A stretch of 64,000 nt of DNA, taken from positions 1 to 64,000 of the forward strand of contig NZ_JXQZ01000023.1 of assembly GCF_000878135.1 (NCBI RefSeq), read 5' to 3'. The stretch is from Frigoribacterium sp. MEB024 (GTDB lineage: Bacteria > Actinomycetota > Actinomycetes > Actinomycetales > Microbacteriaceae). The notes below the pieces were generated by a model, which was not told the DNA's origin, ran no database searches, and saw only the letters and a list, made by a program, of their open reading frames with translations. Below are positions 34,470 to 51,823 of this stretch, one piece after another. Position numbers and translations under genes: made by a program. Position 1 is the first letter of the stretch, and each line of letters begins with the position of its first letter.

Positions 34470-36536
34470 TCAGGGGACGATGACCTGCCCGCAGAAGAGT
34501 TGCGGATTCGTCCCTCCGGCCGTGTCGAGAGCGTAGACGCACACCTGACGAGGTCCGGACGCAGCCGGGACGACGGCCTGGTATCCGTGCGAGCCCGTGA
34601 CACCGAAGACCCGGTTCACGTCAGGCCGGGGCTGGTCGGCCGAGAGGGCCGTGCCCTTGCCGTCCACGTAGACGTGCACCGGGATGGACGCCGCGGTGGC
34701 GTCGGGGTCGAAGGCCCATCCCTTGACGGACACTCCACCCGCCACTCCGACGACGGACTCGTTGCTCGCGGTCGGTGGGGCGTTGGTCGTGACGAAGGTC
34801 TGACAGCGCATCAGGACGGTCGCCCCGGCCCCTTGGTTGATCGCATAGACGCAGATCTCGTGCGAACCGCTCCGGACGGGAACCGTGGTCGAGAACCCGT
34901 GGGCGGCTCCGTAGGCGGGGAACGACCTCGCGATGTCACTTCGAGGTGCGTCGGCCGTGATCGCCCGTCCGACCCCGTCGACGTACACGTGAACCGGGAT
35001 GGACGCCGCTGTGTCCGGGTCGAGCGCCCAACCGCGCACGGTGACGGAGTCGCTGGACGCCGTGACGGCGTCGACGACGCCGATCGGAGAGCCGGACGGA
35101 ACCGACACCGAGGAGCATCTCATCGTGGTCGTGCTCCCCGCCCCGACGTTCAGCGCGTAGATGCAGACGTCATGTGCGCCCGGGGTCGCCGCAAGGGTGG
35201 TGGAGAACCCGTGGGCTGCACCGTACGCGGGGAAGTTGCGACCGATGTCGGGCCGGTTCTCGTTCGCCACGAGTGCGGTGCCCTTTCCGTCCACGTAGAC
35301 GTGCACGGGAATCGACGCCGTCGTGTCGTAGTCGAGGGCCCAACCCGAGACGACGATCTGACCGGGCCCGGCGGCCAGGGTGTCGACGACACCGACCGGG
35401 TTGGGCGGCAGCACGGTCACCGAGCGGCATCCGAGGGACGAGGTGTTCCCCGAGGCCACACCGATGGCGTAGACGCACACGTCCCACGTTCCGGGGGACG
35501 CCGCGACGCTCGCGGAGTACCCGTGGGCGGAGCCGAGAGCCGGGTAGACCGCACCGACGTCGGGCCGCGATCCGTCGGCTCGGATCGCCGTGCCCTGAGC
35601 GCCCACGTAGACGTGGACGGCGATCGACGCGGACGTGCTCGGGTCGGCGGCCCAGCCGCTCACCGTGACCTTGCCCACGCCGCCACTGAGCGACTCGATG
35701 CTGCCGAACGGTTTCGTGGGTCCGGTCGGCGAGCCGAACCAGTCGTTGAAGTAGACCCAGAAGTTCCGGTTGCCGTAGGCGGAACAGGCGTCTCCCGATC
35801 CGTTGAGGTTCGCCAGCGCCGCGGCATTGGGCGTGTAAGGCGTGTAGTAGTACAAGTTCGCCGTGGCCTGGTTCTTGATGAAGACGCTCTTCGAACCGCA
35901 CGCGGCATTGGGGTTGTACAGGACGTTGCGGTTGCCACCCGGGGCGTACTGGGTGAAGTAGTTGCTCGTCCCGGCTGGATTGGCGTAACGCTTGAACTGC
36001 CAGGACGCCTTGTAGAGCTGGTTGTAGACACCCGCGAACGACGGATCGCAGCCCCCGTTGGCACTGTCGGGGCACGCATAACCCATGGCTCGCTCGAGTC
36101 GTGCGTCCGACGGCCCCTTGGCGATGGAGCCCGTGACCAGGCTCTGCTCCTTCTGGAGCGTCACCAAGAGGACCTGGGGATTGATCCCGCAGGCCTGGGC
36201 GACCTTGGCGATGATGCGGGAGACGGGCTCCTGGGACGCCCCTTGGTACGCACCGCACATGGCGTCCGCCCCCCGGGACGAGGTGTCGAGCCTCTTGGCA
36301 CTCAGGCAGTTGGCATTCGTGCAGCTACCGATGCGAGAGGTCAGGAACGCCTGGATCTGGGCTTCGGACATCGCGGACGCGTTGAAGAACGTCTGATCCG
36401 AGATGATGTTCCCGGGATCGAAGTCGGCCCCGGACACCGCCTGGGCCGGTGGGGACGACGAACCCCACGCCAGGCCGGTCATCAGACCTGCTGCGACGGC
36501 GATGGCTGCTGCCATCGCGATGAACCTTCTCGACAC
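34470..36536 (-). CDS. Secreted protein, lysozyme-like domain plus four tandem repeats
   Basis: A 688-residue exported protein. The signal peptide (1-33) has a basic start MSRRF and a cleavage-like PPAQA. Residues about 37-270 form a Cys-containing domain with FDPGNIISDQTFFN and the helix GINPQVLLVTLQKEQSLVTG, which resembles the catalytic helix of lytic transglycosylase/lysozyme folds (inference). It is followed by four repeats of about 100-106 residues (near 277-380, 381-484, 485-590 and 591-688). Each has SGWAxDP, SIPVHVYVDGKGTA, RPDI, AHGFSTT and CVYA motifs plus two Cys. Probably a cell-wall hydrolase or wall-associated protein. AGAAGG precedes the ATG, and TAGAGT at 36645-36650 is a candidate -10, implying a leader of ~100 nt. 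Confidence 0.78.
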   Translation of the reverse strand: MSRRFIAMAAAIAVAAGLMTGLAWGSSSPPAQAVSGADFDPGNIISDQTFFNASAMSEAQIQAFLTSRIGSCTNANCLSAKRLDTSSRGADAMCGAYQGASQEPVSRIIAKVAQACGINPQVLLVTLQKEQSLVTGSIAKGPSDARLERAMGYACPDSANGGCDPSFAGVYNQLYKASWQFKRYANPAGTSNYFTQYAPGGNRNVLYNPNAACGSKSVFIKNQATANLYYYTPYTPNAAALANLNGSGDACSAYGNRNFWVYFNDWFGSPTGPTKPFGSIESLSGGVGKVTVSGWAADPSTSASIAVHVYVGAQGTAIRADGSRPDVGAVYPALGSAHGYSASVAASPGTWDVCVYAIGVASGNTSSLGCRSVTVLPPNPVGVVDTLAAGPGQIVVSGWALDYDTTASIPVHVYVDGKGTALVANENRPDIGRNFPAYGAAHGFSTTLAATPGAHDVCIYALNVGAGSTTTMRCSSVSVPSGSPIGVVDAVTASSDSVTVRGWALDPDTAASIPVHVYVDGVGRAITADAPRSDIARSFPAYGAAHGFSTTVPVRSGSHEICVYAINQGAGATVLMRCQTFVTTNAPPTASNESVVGVAGGVSVKGWAFDPDATAASIPVHVYVDGKGTALSADQPRPDVNRVFGVTGSHGYQAVVPAASGPRQVCVYALDTAGGTNPQLFCGQVIVP

Positions 36537-36669
36537 GGACGGCCTCCCTGGGGCGTGCGGTCGAGGCGTCTCCCTCCGCCGCTACCTGGCGGCGTGCCTC
36601 GTCGATCGAGCGGGAGTCGGATGCGAAGCCCGACCAGTTCTCAGACTCTAGCTGTACGTACCCCGTTCG

Positions 36670-37728
36670 TCAGGCAACGTCCCCCGAAGACGGGGCAGCA
36701 TCCGAGGAGGACAACGACCGCTCCACCCGAAGGCGATCGGCGCGAGAGACGCCCGAACGCCGCCGTGCCACGACGGCGGAGCGTGACGCGGTCACCAGCC
36801 CTCTCGACACCGCCGCCCAGTCTCGTCGGGTCAGAACAGCCGTGTCCGGTCGCGCGAGATCGATCAGGAGGCGCGCGAGGGTCCTCAGGACGACACGGAG
36901 AACGAATCCCCAGGATCCGTTGCGGAGAACCACCAGAAGACGGTTCCTCATGCTCTGACGGCGAACGAGAACACCGGCGTCGTCCGAACTGGCCGCGTGC
37001 CGGTGGACAGCCCGGGCCGAGGCCGCGTGGACGATCTCCTGCCCCGCCAGACGAAGCCTCCACGAGACGTCGAGGTCCTCGTAATACATGAAGAGCGACT
37101 CGTCGAAACCGCCGACGGCGGCCAACGCCGATCGCCGCAGGAAGGCAGCCCCTCCGGAGAAGCCGAAAGGACGACCCCCAGGGTCGGCGACGAGGTCGAC
37201 GGGTCGTAGCCAGTCGCGGTCACGACCGTTCCCGTCGGGTCCGAGCTCGATCCCGGTACCGTTCATCAAGGTCACGGCGTCGGCGTCGTCGGACCTCCGC
37301 CAGGCCACCCCCTCCCCGTCGACGAGCGCACGCCCGCCCCGGGACCCCGACGGGACGAAGCGCCCTTCGAGGGTCACCGTGGCCGAAGCCGCGGCCACGG
37401 TCTCCCCCCCGTCGCTCAGCGCCCGGAGGCCGGCGTCCAGGAACCCCGGTTCAGCGACGGCGTCGTTGTTCAGCAGGACGACGACGTCCCCGGTCGAGGC
37501 CTCGATGCCTCGACGAACGCCGCCGGCGAAACCGGCGTTCGTGGACTCCTCGACGACGACGAGATCGGGGAACGTCCGCCGGAAGATGTCGACGGCTCCA
37601 GGGCGCGCCTCGTTCTCGACCAGGACGACCTCGAACGACCACTGGGAGTCCTGGCCGATCAGCGAATGGAGACAACGCACGGTCAGTTCGGGTTGACGCC
37701 AGTTGACCACGATCACGGATGCGTCCAT
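36670..37728 (-). CDS. GT2 glycosyltransferase
   Basis: A 352-residue GT2 of the rhamnosyltransferase-like group. Motifs are MDASVIVVNWRQPELTVRCL, VVLVENEARPGAVD, NAGFAGGVRRGIEASTGDVVVLLNNDAV, and GGFDESLFMYYEDLDVSWRLRLAG, which is the usual acceptor-side signature. The C-terminal ~110 residues are basic and helical, possibly membrane-associated. ATG 37728 was chosen because it starts the conserved first strand. It is divergent from the GT2-GT4 fusion gene. Donor sugar unknown; rhamnose is plausible from context. Confidence 0.85.
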   Translation of the reverse strand: MDASVIVVNWRQPELTVRCLHSLIGQDSQWSFEVVLVENEARPGAVDIFRRTFPDLVVVEESTNAGFAGGVRRGIEASTGDVVVLLNNDAVAEPGFLDAGLRALSDGGETVAAASATVTLEGRFVPSGSRGGRALVDGEGVAWRRSDDADAVTLMNGTGIELGPDGNGRDRDWLRPVDLVADPGGRPFGFSGGAAFLRRSALAAVGGFDESLFMYYEDLDVSWRLRLAGQEIVHAASARAVHRHAASSDDAGVLVRRQSMRNRLLVVLRNGSWGFVLRVVLRTLARLLIDLARPDTAVLTRRDWAAVSRGLVTASRSAVVARRRSGVSRADRLRVERSLSSSDAAPSSGDVA

Positions 37729-49513: not shown

Positions 49514-49519
49514 AGCCTA
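49514..49519 (-). promoter_or_regulatory. -10 element of leaderless rmlC
   Basis: TAGGCT on the minus strand, 6 nt before GTG 49507. Its first three bases are the TAG stop codon of the upstream glycosyltransferase gene. Confidence 0.55.
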
Positions 49520-50677
49520 GCAAGCCGGTGGGGAGGACGGGCGAGCCGTCCGGCCACGACGCAGCACGTCGGCCCACGTCGTGCTGCAACCGAGGAGGCG
49601 GTGACCGCTCACGTACGACGCCGCCGCTTCGGAGGGCCCCTCGTCCACGGCGGCCAGAATGGCACGACGCCAGTCGTCGGTGCTCGATGCGGTGCGCCCG
49701 CCGTGATCCGGCACCGTGGCGTAGCTGGTCGATCTCGATGCCACCGTCGGCAGTCCCAACATCGTGTACTCCAGGAACTTCAGGTCGCTCTTGGAGGTGT
49801 TGAACGGATCGTCGGCCAACGGCGCCAGGCCCACCGACCATCGTCCGGACTCACCCCGCAGCCACCGGACGAATTCGGGGTGATGGCCCTCGGGGATGTC
49901 CACACGCTCGAACCACCCGGGGTCTCCGCCCGTGACGCCGACGACGTCGAGCACGACCGGGCGCCCGTCCTTCGTGGCCAGGCCGTCGAAGACCGGTCGC
50001 AGCAGCTCGAGGTCGTCCTGGTGTGTCGCGGACCCCATGTACAGCGCATGGACGCGACCGTCCGCGTCGGGCCGCCCTCCGGTCCACGGCTCCCGAGGAG
50101 ACGTCGGGCCGGGTTCGCCGCCCCAGAACTCCGGGTCGAGCTCGTTGGGGACGACCACCACCTCCGACGCGAACTGCCTCACCACCCGGGCGAGGGCTTC
50201 CGTGCTGACGATCACGGCGTCCGCCGCTCTCACGACGGCCTCGACGGAGTCGATCCGGGCCTCGTCGTACTCGGCACGCACGAGACGCCGACGCGCGTCC
50301 ACGCTGAAGAAGTCGTCGTCGACCTCGGCGACCAGACGGGCTCCGGATGCGCGAACGGCCTGCAAGAACAGCGCGCTCGCCGAGGCGGGGACGGCATCCC
50401 TCTGGACGAGGACGACGTCGTAGGGAAGCCCCTTCTCGCCAGCTGCGACCGCCGACGGGTCGATCTGCTCAGCCGACATGCGACCCGCCACCACCTCGCG
50501 GTTGACCCGGCGGGTCACCCGGATGTGGGCGGACCCCGGATGGACGCCCGCCGCGCCGAGGACGACGTATCCGAGCCGCGGCGCGGGGGCGTCGTCGACG
50601 GGGTGGACGTTCGCCCTCCTCTGCCTCAGGACGCGCGAGACGACCGCACCGAGCACGGAGCGGCGTTGCTCCGTCAC
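49517..50677 (-). CDS. Glycosyltransferase (GT-B, group 1 type)
   Basis: A 386-residue GT-B-like enzyme. The N-terminal half has YDVVLVQRDAVPASASALFLQAV, VAEVDDDFF and AVIVSTEALARVVRQF; the C-terminal half has HALYMGSATHQDDLELLRPVFDGL, GLAPLADDPFNTSKSDLKFLEY and MLGLPTVASRST. Such proteins occur in rhamnan and teichoic-acid-type loci. GTG 50677 overlaps the stop of the small duplicated-domain gene (GTGA), so the two are translationally coupled. Donor unknown. Confidence 0.82.
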   Translation of the reverse strand: MTEQRRSVLGAVVSRVLRQRRANVHPVDDAPAPRLGYVVLGAAGVHPGSAHIRVTRRVNREVVAGRMSAEQIDPSAVAAGEKGLPYDVVLVQRDAVPASASALFLQAVRASGARLVAEVDDDFFSVDARRRLVRAEYDEARIDSVEAVVRAADAVIVSTEALARVVRQFASEVVVVPNELDPEFWGGEPGPTSPREPWTGGRPDADGRVHALYMGSATHQDDLELLRPVFDGLATKDGRPVVLDVVGVTGGDPGWFERVDIPEGHHPEFVRWLRGESGRWSVGLAPLADDPFNTSKSDLKFLEYTMLGLPTVASRSTSYATVPDHGGRTASSTDDWRRAILAAVDEGPSEAAASYVSGHRLLGCSTTWADVLRRGRTARPSSPPAC

Positions 50678-50904
50678 CTCGCCGAGTAGTCGGCGCCGGA
50701 CGTGACAGCCGAGTGCGGGATGGACAACGACGTGAGGATGTCGAGGAACGCCGCAGCACTGACGGCCCTGGGTGGCTGACCGATGGACCGCAGCGCCGTC
50801 ACCGTGCTCTCGGTCAGGACGTGTTTCAGCATTCGCGGGGCGACGACGCAGACGTAGCCGCTCCCGACCCCCGGTAACGATCCGGTGCACAGCAGGACGA
50901 TCAT
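50674..50904 (-). CDS. Small stand-alone paralogue of the carboxypeptidase C-terminal domain
   Basis: A 76-residue protein that aligns without gaps to residues 224-298 of the upstream VanY-like protein, with about 32 of 75 positions identical by eye. Shared motifs include CT-x2-L-x2-VG, R-x-LKH-x-LT, ALR-x2-G-x-P, FL, SAVT and ADY near the end. It has no signal peptide, unlike its paralogue, which is a Tat substrate. AAGGAAA precedes the ATG by about 8 nt. The gene lies 22 nt after the carboxypeptidase and overlaps the next glycosyltransferase start. The family is not recognised; function unknown. Confidence 0.8.
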   Translation of the reverse strand: MIVLLCTGSLPGVGSGYVCVVAPRMLKHVLTESTVTALRSIGQPPRAVSAAAFLDILTSLSIPHSAVTSGADYSAR

Positions 50905-50926
50905 GTTCGGTTTCCTTCCGTGGCGC

Positions 50927-51823
50927 TCAACGACGCCAATAATCCGCACGGACCGTGACGGCCGACCGGGGAACAGAGATGCCGTCGAGCAGCGCGAGGA
51001 ACTGCACTCTCGACAATTCGTAGTAGGGAACGCCGACGGCCCGCAACGCGGAGATCTGGTCGAGCGTGAGCAGGTGCTTGAGCGTCCTCATGCCGAGGAG
51101 AGCGGTGTAGACGAGACCGACTTGATCGAGGTTCTCGGTGCATCGCACCACGACGAGACCGCTGTCGACGAGGAGTGTGTTGCCGGGGCCCGGGTACGCG
51201 GCCACGTAGTCGAAGTGCCAGGGCTCCGGCCGGGAGAATCCGTTCCCGGTGGGCTGCCATCCATATGCCGGTGCGTTCGCGTCCATCCACCGCTTGGCCG
51301 CGGTCCCGGCGGTCTGGACGCCGGATCCGAAGTCGCACGAGATGCCCCAGCCGTGGTTGGAGGTTCCGGGGTAGGCGGCCAGGTTTCCGGTGCCCGCCTG
51401 GTAGGCGTTCCAGTAGGAGACCTGACGCCCGTAATCCCGATACCCCTCCGTGATCGCCAGTGGCGTGCCGAAGGTCGAGGAGAACGCCAAGCTGAGCGAG
51501 AGGAACTGACGGGCTGCGTCGTCCCGGAGGTACCCGGAGCCCGCGACGGATGCCTGGACGGGCGTCAGGGCGTTCGTCGGGATCTGCCCGTTGGCGTAGC
51601 CACCCCACGCCTGCAGTGCGGCGACCGCGAGTGCCTCGGCGACGGTGTCGACCGCCCCGGTGGTCTCGCCGAGCTGCACGGAGGCACGGGCACCGAGCGA
51701 CGGGTGCAGGACGACGGGAGCCGCGAGCGCCACGGACGTGGCCGCATAGGCGAGGAGACGGCGGCGGTCGAAGGATGCGGGACCGTCCGCCTCGTCCGAC
51801 GTCGGTGGTTCGTCACGATGCAT
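50927..51823 (-). CDS. Tat-exported VanY-like D-alanyl-D-alanine carboxypeptidase with extra C-terminal domain
   Basis: A 298-residue M15B metallopeptidase. The N-terminus has a twin-arginine-like DRRRLLAYAATSVALAAP (19-36). The peptidase domain (about 85-215) carries zinc/catalytic residues H157 and D164 in SNHGWGISCD and E200/H203 in EPWHFDY. It would trim D-Ala from peptidoglycan stems. Residues 224-298 are an additional domain with no name known to me, duplicated as the separate next gene. It is divergent from rmlB and first of a three-gene unit. Confidence 0.88.
   Translation of the reverse strand: MHRDEPPTSDEADGPASFDRRRLLAYAATSVALAAPVVLHPSLGARASVQLGETTGAVDTVAEALAVAALQAWGGYANGQIPTNALTPVQASVAGSGYLRDDAARQFLSLSLAFSSTFGTPLAITEGYRDYGRQVSYWNAYQAGTGNLAAYPGTSNHGWGISCDFGSGVQTAGTAAKRWMDANAPAYGWQPTGNGFSRPEPWHFDYVAAYPGPGNTLLVDSGLVVVRCTENLDQVGLVYTALLGMRTLKHLLTLDQISALRAVGVPYYELSRVQFLALLDGISVPRSAVTVRADYWRR

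Follow-up and report, generated by a model that had tools for sequence, protein, structure and literature searches.

Phage endolysins that combine an enzyme with additional copies of its wall-binding domain are well documented. Around half of the endolysins from phages of Gram-positive hosts have been reported as predicted to carry internal starts, and heteromultimers of 1:3, 2:2 and 1:5 are among those described (PMC9430671). In PlyC of the streptococcal phage C1, the wall-binding subunit PlyCB has a gene of its own, adjacent to that of the enzyme PlyCA, which associates with eight PlyCB (PMC7098653; PMC4777826). LysIME-EF1 and Lys170 of enterococcal phages pair fused and free copies of one C-terminal binding domain, both polypeptides being made from one gene by means of an internal start; one enzyme with three free domains has been reported (PMC7098653; PMC9430671), and mutations breaking the contacts in LysIME-EF1 are described as nearly abolishing killing (PMC7098653). 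A free binding domain likewise joins the full enzyme in CTP1L and CD27L of clostridial phages, again from a single gene, and CTP1L with its internal start knocked out is reported to stay monomeric (PMC4777826). Internal start sites yielding free binding subunits are also described for other endolysins (PMC9430671; PMC7098653; PMC4777826). Here we analysed a bacterial gene pair that may follow the same design. The window, which is the whole stretch of 64,000 nucleotides at positions 1 to 64,000 of contig NZ_JXQZ01000023.1 of Frigoribacterium sp. MEB024, encodes on its minus strand a VanY-like (M15) peptidase of 298 residues (50927..51823) and, next to it, a 76-residue protein (50674..50904) that is a free copy of the C-terminal domain of the peptidase. 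We propose, with a probability of roughly one half, that the pair is a domesticated two-gene multimeric phage endolysin, in which the separate gene supplies extra wall-binding subunits that would leave the cell by hitchhiking with the peptidase through the twin-arginine translocation (Tat) system.

The homology between the two copies was evident from their alignment. The sequence-only reading had matched the small protein without gaps to residues 224-298 of the peptidase, with about 32 of 75 identities; the alignment is indeed gapless, and its extent was corrected to residues 1-76 of the free protein against residues 223-298 of the peptidase (50930..51157), with 32 of 76 positions identical. 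Its BLOSUM62 score of 150 lies far above the shuffled control (n = 2000; mean 24.3, standard deviation 4.5, maximum 54), and the LKH, ALR, SAVT and ADY motifs as well as one shared cysteine (C6) are present in both copies. Within its own genome, the third-best match to the domain, after the free and the fused copy, reached only E 0.06. The peptidase matched PF02557 VanY (8e-13, 48.8 bits, cut-off 25), with the catalytic domain at 51200..51532. Residues H157, D164, E200 and H203, which we take to be the zinc ligands and the catalytic glutamate, were invariant in all seven aligned relatives. A probable Tat-type signal occupies approximately residues 1-48 (51680..51823; extent judged by eye) and contains the motif RRRLL at residues 20-24.

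The distribution of the domain was then determined with a two-row profile in 16 Frigoribacterium genomes. Fourteen of these contained two domain matches each, one free and one fused, lying side by side, with the free gene 3' of VanY on the same strand and 15-106 nucleotides apart in every case (22 nucleotides between the VanY stop and the free-gene start in the window). A PlyC-type layout, with the binding subunit in its own gene beside the enzyme, is therefore seen in 14 of the 16 genomes. In the remaining two (G206 and G209), neither VanY nor the small gene was present in the 12 kb read at the rhamnose (rml) locus, where RmlB and RmlC are neighbours about 100 nucleotides apart. Genome-wide, G206 gave no match to the VanY catalytic domain and G209 gave a single distant one (E 3.8e-6). 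As both genes occur in 14 genomes and neither in two, the pair behaves as one cassette. The 14 pairs all sit in the rml locus, adjoining RmlB in ten and following RmlA in four, so that the pair evidently moves together while its place changes.

The genes beyond the pair were less constant. In the window, the stop of the free gene and the in-frame GTG start of a glycosyltransferase (49517-50677) overlap in a GTGA (50674..50677, minus strand), which makes the translational coupling claimed in the sequence-only reading possible in this genome; with only one of the 14 pairs followed directly by that glycosyltransferase, the overlap was not counted as part of the system. In the other 13 genomes, the free gene is followed directly by RmlC in six, by RmlC past a 1.6-kb stretch in one, by a convergent glycosyltransferase in four and by nothing recognised in two. 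A cassette tied to the wall-polysaccharide glycosyltransferase, as had been supposed, was rejected in view of these varying neighbours; the conserved unit is VanY plus the free copy. The same observations bear on the idea that the free copy binds a cytoplasmic wall-polysaccharide precursor or lipid-linked intermediate and tunes the rhamnose/glycosyltransferase locus, while VanY uses its own domain outside. The location of all 14 pairs within the rml locus and the overlap in the window genome speak for it, but the locus persists without the pair in two genomes, the neighbour after the free gene varies, and the free gene moves as a unit with VanY rather than with a glycosyltransferase. We consider this explanation improbable. 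The position in the rhamnose locus suggests a rhamnose polymer as a possible wall ligand.

Outside the genus, the domain was rare. A family-wide search found it in 14 of 398 genomes and two of 85 genera (ten Frigoribacterium genomes and four of a second genus), an order-wide search in one of 396 genomes, namely that of the window, and all six matching public records were from Frigoribacterium. Each of the four genomes available for the second genus carries the domain once, at the C-terminus of an M23-type peptidase (assigned by eye). The duplicated domain thus appears, judging from these genes, to accompany exported peptidoglycan peptidases, as had been suggested. Scans of 26 domains against Pfam and PHROG gave weak matches only, none above the cut-off, and no NCBIfam family covered the domain above its cut-off, which bears out the earlier claim of a domain without a family. 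Membership in DUF5477 was considered and rejected, as a single member of the 26, the fused domain, matched it at E 0.0034, below the cut-off. No result was obtained by tblastn of the 76-residue protein against phages and plasmids, or by scans of viral contigs with the free protein, a tight alignment of the domain and the tail of a lysin in genome G210.

A maximum-likelihood tree was built from 32 domains and 76 columns, with six forks left open. The 14 fused copies form one side of a branch with support of 98/96. The four M23 copies are grouped with support of 100/100, and their long branch joins the tree among the free copies, which therefore do not form one side of a branch. Since the fused copies are one clade, the split between fused and free copies predates the genus. 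Recent duplication or gene conversion was rejected as the source of the two copies, given that the tree shows both kinds across all 14 genomes.

Selection on the free gene was assessed by pairwise comparison. In the six closest non-identical pairs, the ratio of nonsynonymous to synonymous substitution rates (dN/dS) was 0.04-0.14, indicating purifying selection, and in more distant pairs it was 0.2-0.7; the mean ratio of nonsynonymous to synonymous differences per site (pN/pS) was 0.67, a value read with synonymous change near saturation. These results make it hardly credible that duplication left the free gene as a decaying remnant. Its small size, its variability and the high mean pN/pS would suit such a remnant, but it is open in all 14 genomes, its closest pairs are under purifying selection, it keeps two invariant cysteines, and both copies have been retained since before the genus split.

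The cysteines further distinguish the two kinds of copy. Cys6 and Cys19 are invariant in the 14 free copies, while none of the 14 fused copies has both (five have one and nine have none). In the predicted structure, the two residues of the free copies lie on the two strands of a hairpin, where they may form a disulphide or bind a metal. A cysteine pair restricted to the free copies would be in keeping with subunits whose final location is oxidising. The pair is also what might be expected if the free copy were exported alone, without a classical signal, as a separate wall-binding protein that, for instance, masks VanY sites; its relatives being binding domains would agree with this as well. 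The strict coupling to VanY argues against independent export, as does the lack of a known route here for such a small signal-less protein, and this alternative is quite improbable. A more elaborate version of the endolysin explanation, in which a diverged, Cys-paired subunit is assembled in the cytoplasm, exported ready-made by Tat and has its extra subunits locked by disulphides outside, is less likely than not.

The fold of the free protein was predicted with AlphaFold from 14 sequences (best model pLDDT 86.9, predicted template modelling score 0.71; five models from 86.9 to 59.9). The model of the full VanY was poor (45.6) and was not used. The idea of an endolysin binding domain, which arose from the lysin tail in G210, had been recorded before the first structure search result. 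In that search, LysIME-EF1 took the first two ranks and Lys170 came 44th, all with weak E values (1.9, 2.4 and 8.0). A comparison with 210 chains was headed by PlyCB (Z 5.7, root-mean-square deviation 2.4, 56 residues aligned; a weak Z), followed by a Streptococcus mutans domain (Z 5.5), LysIME-EF1 (4.5) and Lys170 (4.2), so that the five PDB entries with the highest Z include the binding domains of PlyCB, LysIME-EF1 and Lys170. The S. mutans entry (3l9a, 68 residues aligned) is the C-terminal domain of a hypothetical protein and may, going by the predicted model, be another unrecognised binding domain. CTP1L and CD27L were absent among the structural matches listed. Four EccB entries scored Z 3.3-3.7; the EccB repeats of type VII secretion share a similar small fold, and the EccB1 repeat has been likened to PlyCB before (Dali Z 5.0; PMC4769845), but they are part of a membrane secretion component and come without a peptidase. 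Sequence searches of solved structures gave best E values of 0.018 (an immunoglobulin) with query A2 and 0.49 with A8, the phage-tail alignment described below, and PlyC had no sequence match in the PDB search. Microbacterium phage Min1 supplied the best match in a viral structure library, a protein of 111 residues (E 0.013, probability 1.00, TM 0.74); as gp69, annotated as a helix-turn-helix protein, has the same length, the match was assigned to gp60 from its sequence, by eye.

The sequence-only reading had suggested that the domain is a dimerisation, targeting or regulatory module not yet named. Targeting and oligomerisation fit the structural relatives, but the wall-binding role of an endolysin is more specific than a regulatory one. 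The absence of a match to a described family of known function holds in part only, as both profile and fold place the domain near the wall-binding domains of PlyCB, LysIME-EF1 and Lys170.

A further link to phages was found through the whole VanY sequence, which matched 141 phage records by tblastn. Among the 40 matches listed, the alignments extended into the C-terminal domain in Microbacterium and some Curtobacterium lysins. The tail of the Phorgeous lysin was found in 101 records, all of Microbacterium phages, and lay in lysin A or endolysin genes among the 40 matches listed. Twelve Microbacterium lysins (L094, L100-L110) were picked for their spread, and the tails of ten were aligned (A8) for comparison with the bacterial domain profile (A3). 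Alignment of A3 with A8 by hhalign gave a probability of 93 (E 3.4e-7), against a maximum of 1.1 for 60 column-shuffled profiles and 0.3 for the reversed one; the Phorgeous tail alone scored 36.8, against at most 14.0 in 40 shuffles. In HMMER with filters off, A3 ranked 11 of the 12 lysins above all 540 decoys, six of them above the inclusion threshold. Conversely, when A8 was run against 28 bacterial domains and 840 decoys, the 21 rows listed were all real domains, eight above the threshold. The hhalign and hidden Markov model results thus agree on profile homology between the domain and the putative wall-binding domain of Microbacterium-phage endolysins, and the reciprocal searches between bacterial and phage domains stand mostly above decoys in both directions. 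Scans of the ten phage tails against Pfam and PHROG gave weak matches only. Many of these lysins A (Phorgeous, Goodman, Hubbs and others) share a VanY-like catalytic part with the peptidase in addition to the homologous C-terminal domain; unlike it, they have no signal peptide that we could see, and a start at the domain border replaces the second gene.

The genome G210 contains a further lysin-like element. A second VanY-like gene shows 60% identity to the catalytic domain of the pair over 142 residues; no signal was recognised in its product by eye, and its tail begins at a methionine. It lies in a lysis-cassette-like island at about 9.5-11.5 kb of locus L119 (G210:C1:453001-473000), in which this signal-less VanY-type lysin is accompanied by another M15-like gene and a membrane protein. 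The 20 kb read contained no clear phage structural genes, and tblastn of the G210 tail against phages gave no result.

The border start of the Microbacterium lysins was analysed by its Shine-Dalgarno pairing. In 11 of the 12, the in-frame ATG or GTG at the border has the strongest pairing of the internal starts; that of DannyDe is tied with a GTG two codons on, and that of Hubbs is second of ten. Pairing energies at the border range from -4.8 to -11.2, an example being aaggaggacgacATG in Phorgeous. Several of the 12 phages are closely related, and the cases are therefore not 12 independent events. Judging from these genes, the Microbacterium lysins are probably made as two polypeptides from one gene, on two types of catalytic domain. 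Among the lysins from outside the Microbacterium group (CN77, Shayna, Squall and Serenabean), that of Serenabean likewise contains a strong internal GTG (-8.1), but the score of its tail does not exceed shuffles.

A two-gene arrangement may exist among these phages as well. Gp59 of Min1 has no tail and matches the catalytic part of the Fizzles lysin with 64% identity across 130 residues (3e-46); the next gene encodes gp60, and a probable holin is seen in gp62. The Min1 region 35913-36694 (NC_009603) is annotated as hypothetical and membrane associated. No BLAST match was found between gp60 and the Fizzles tail, so that the fold alone links the two, and gp59 with gp60 is a possible two-gene endolysin on the strength of the modelled structure.

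In the Frigoribacterium fused genes, seven of the 14 lack any start codon in the stretch from -12 to +6 codons around the border, and no conserved internal start with a ribosome-binding site was found at the domain border in the 14 genes. In the M23-type genes of the second genus (L061-L064), an ATG was observed at the border in four of four, preceded by a conserved codon stretch, gacctcgaaaggcNcgacATG. The codons of the invariant linker D, L, E, R, D are identical in five of five positions, compared with 61 of 150 in the gene background; the pairing of this ATG is -2.6 and is the strongest in the gene in none of the four. These patterns are no more than suggestive of an internal start in the second genus.

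The export signals provided the next line of evidence. A Tat-type motif was defined as RRx[FLIVM][FLIVM] before a hydrophobic stretch, the stretch being judged by eye. The motif was present in all 14 domain-bearing VanY proteins and in the four domain-bearing M23 proteins, and in none of seven domain-less VanY relatives encoded in these genomes, including two in the window's own genome (the sequence of an eighth locus, L090, was not long enough for this reading, and L093 was left out). The earlier prediction of a Tat-type signal on the peptidase is thereby upheld at the level of the motif. The claim that the free copy has no signal is supported by its upstream region: only five codons separate the previous in-frame stop from the free-gene ATG in G201 and G202, and 8 to 14 in four more genomes, so that no N-terminal signal fits there. 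With a signal-less free copy and a peptidase carrying a Tat-type signal, assembly before export would be expected, with the free subunits hitchhiking. Such a route has been described for HybOC and PaoABC of Escherichia coli, where a signal-less partner exits with a signal-bearing one, PaoB and PaoC hitchhiking with PaoA (PMC4273604), and it is proposed here by analogy; those complexes are cofactor enzymes. The occurrence of the motif on both peptidase families with the domain, and not on domain-less VanY, agrees with hitchhiker export.

The proposed mechanism is as follows. The VanY-like peptidase would bear one wall-binding domain, and the neighbouring gene would supply further copies, much as PlyCB does in PlyC and as internal starts do in Lys170, LysIME-EF1 and CTP1L. 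The signal-less free copies would bind to the fused copy while still inside the cell. Once folded, this complex would pass through Tat by virtue of its only signal, that of the peptidase, and outside it would grip the wall by several binding domains while trimming peptidoglycan stem peptides. Physical assembly, co-export, the wall ligand and the substrate are parts of this scheme that we infer. The pair differs from its phage counterparts in several respects: its enzyme keeps a fused copy, unlike PlyCA; it is chromosomal and Tat-type, where PlyC is a phage lysis enzyme; it uses two genes, where LysIME-EF1 and Lys170 use one; and its enzyme is M15, where that of LysIME-EF1 is CHAP.

The missing signal of the free copy can also be explained by a dedicated cytoplasmic chaperone or inhibitor that holds VanY in an inactive state, or proofreads it ahead of Tat export, and is released afterwards. 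The adjacent gene in 14 of 14 pairs, the strict co-occurrence and the divergence of the free from the fused copy would all be expected of such a protein. However, its nearest fold relatives are binding subunits of active complexes, and the cysteine pair found only in free copies fits an exported, oxidised protein at least equally well; we regard this role as unlikely, though not negligible. The supply of extra wall-binding domains to the peptidase remains the most economical reading of the free protein.

Several results weigh against a domesticated endolysin. The best Z was 5.7, and no Foldseek match reached E <= 0.001 in the PDB or the viral library; because the Z values fall below the caution level of 8, the fold argument depends on how consistent the matches are with one another. 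In the tail comparison, from which CN77 was left out, Min1 gp60, the G210 tail, Serenabean, Squall and Shayna scored within their own shuffles, and Fizzles, Min1 gp60, the G210 lysin, CN77, Shayna, Squall and Serenabean did not rise above the best A3 decoy. A search with A8 through 249 genomes of the family, that of the window included, gave no match at E <= 0.001, which makes the link between bacterial and phage domains a distant one. The other seven fused genes do have starts near the border, in varying places, where the pairing lies between -2.1 and -6.0 and is at its strongest in G207, G210 and G203, so that the swap from an internal start to a separate gene is not clean; weak, unconserved border starts nevertheless fit a separate gene having taken over. 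Plain RR pairs also occur in the signals of domain-less VanY proteins, without the fuller motif; since these arginine-rich proteins often contain such pairs, weight was given to the fuller motif alone.

An M15 peptidase, an endolysin binding domain, a multimeric endolysin and hitchhiker export are each known, and their combination appears to be new. No description of it in a bacterial chromosome was found in the open-licence literature, which also held no paper mentioning both Frigoribacterium and carboxypeptidase. If the proposal is correct, an unnamed domain would gain a function, a connection would be drawn between two bacterial genera and many phages of Microbacterium, and the bacterium would have retained a multi-subunit phage lysis design for its own wall, with the extra subunits drawn from a duplicated gene and the export of the complex solved by Tat. 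Assembly before export would explain the use of Tat by these wall peptidases. This would turn two questions into testable ones: why some wall peptidases have Tat-type signals, and whether the avidity gained from extra binding domains is used outside lysis.

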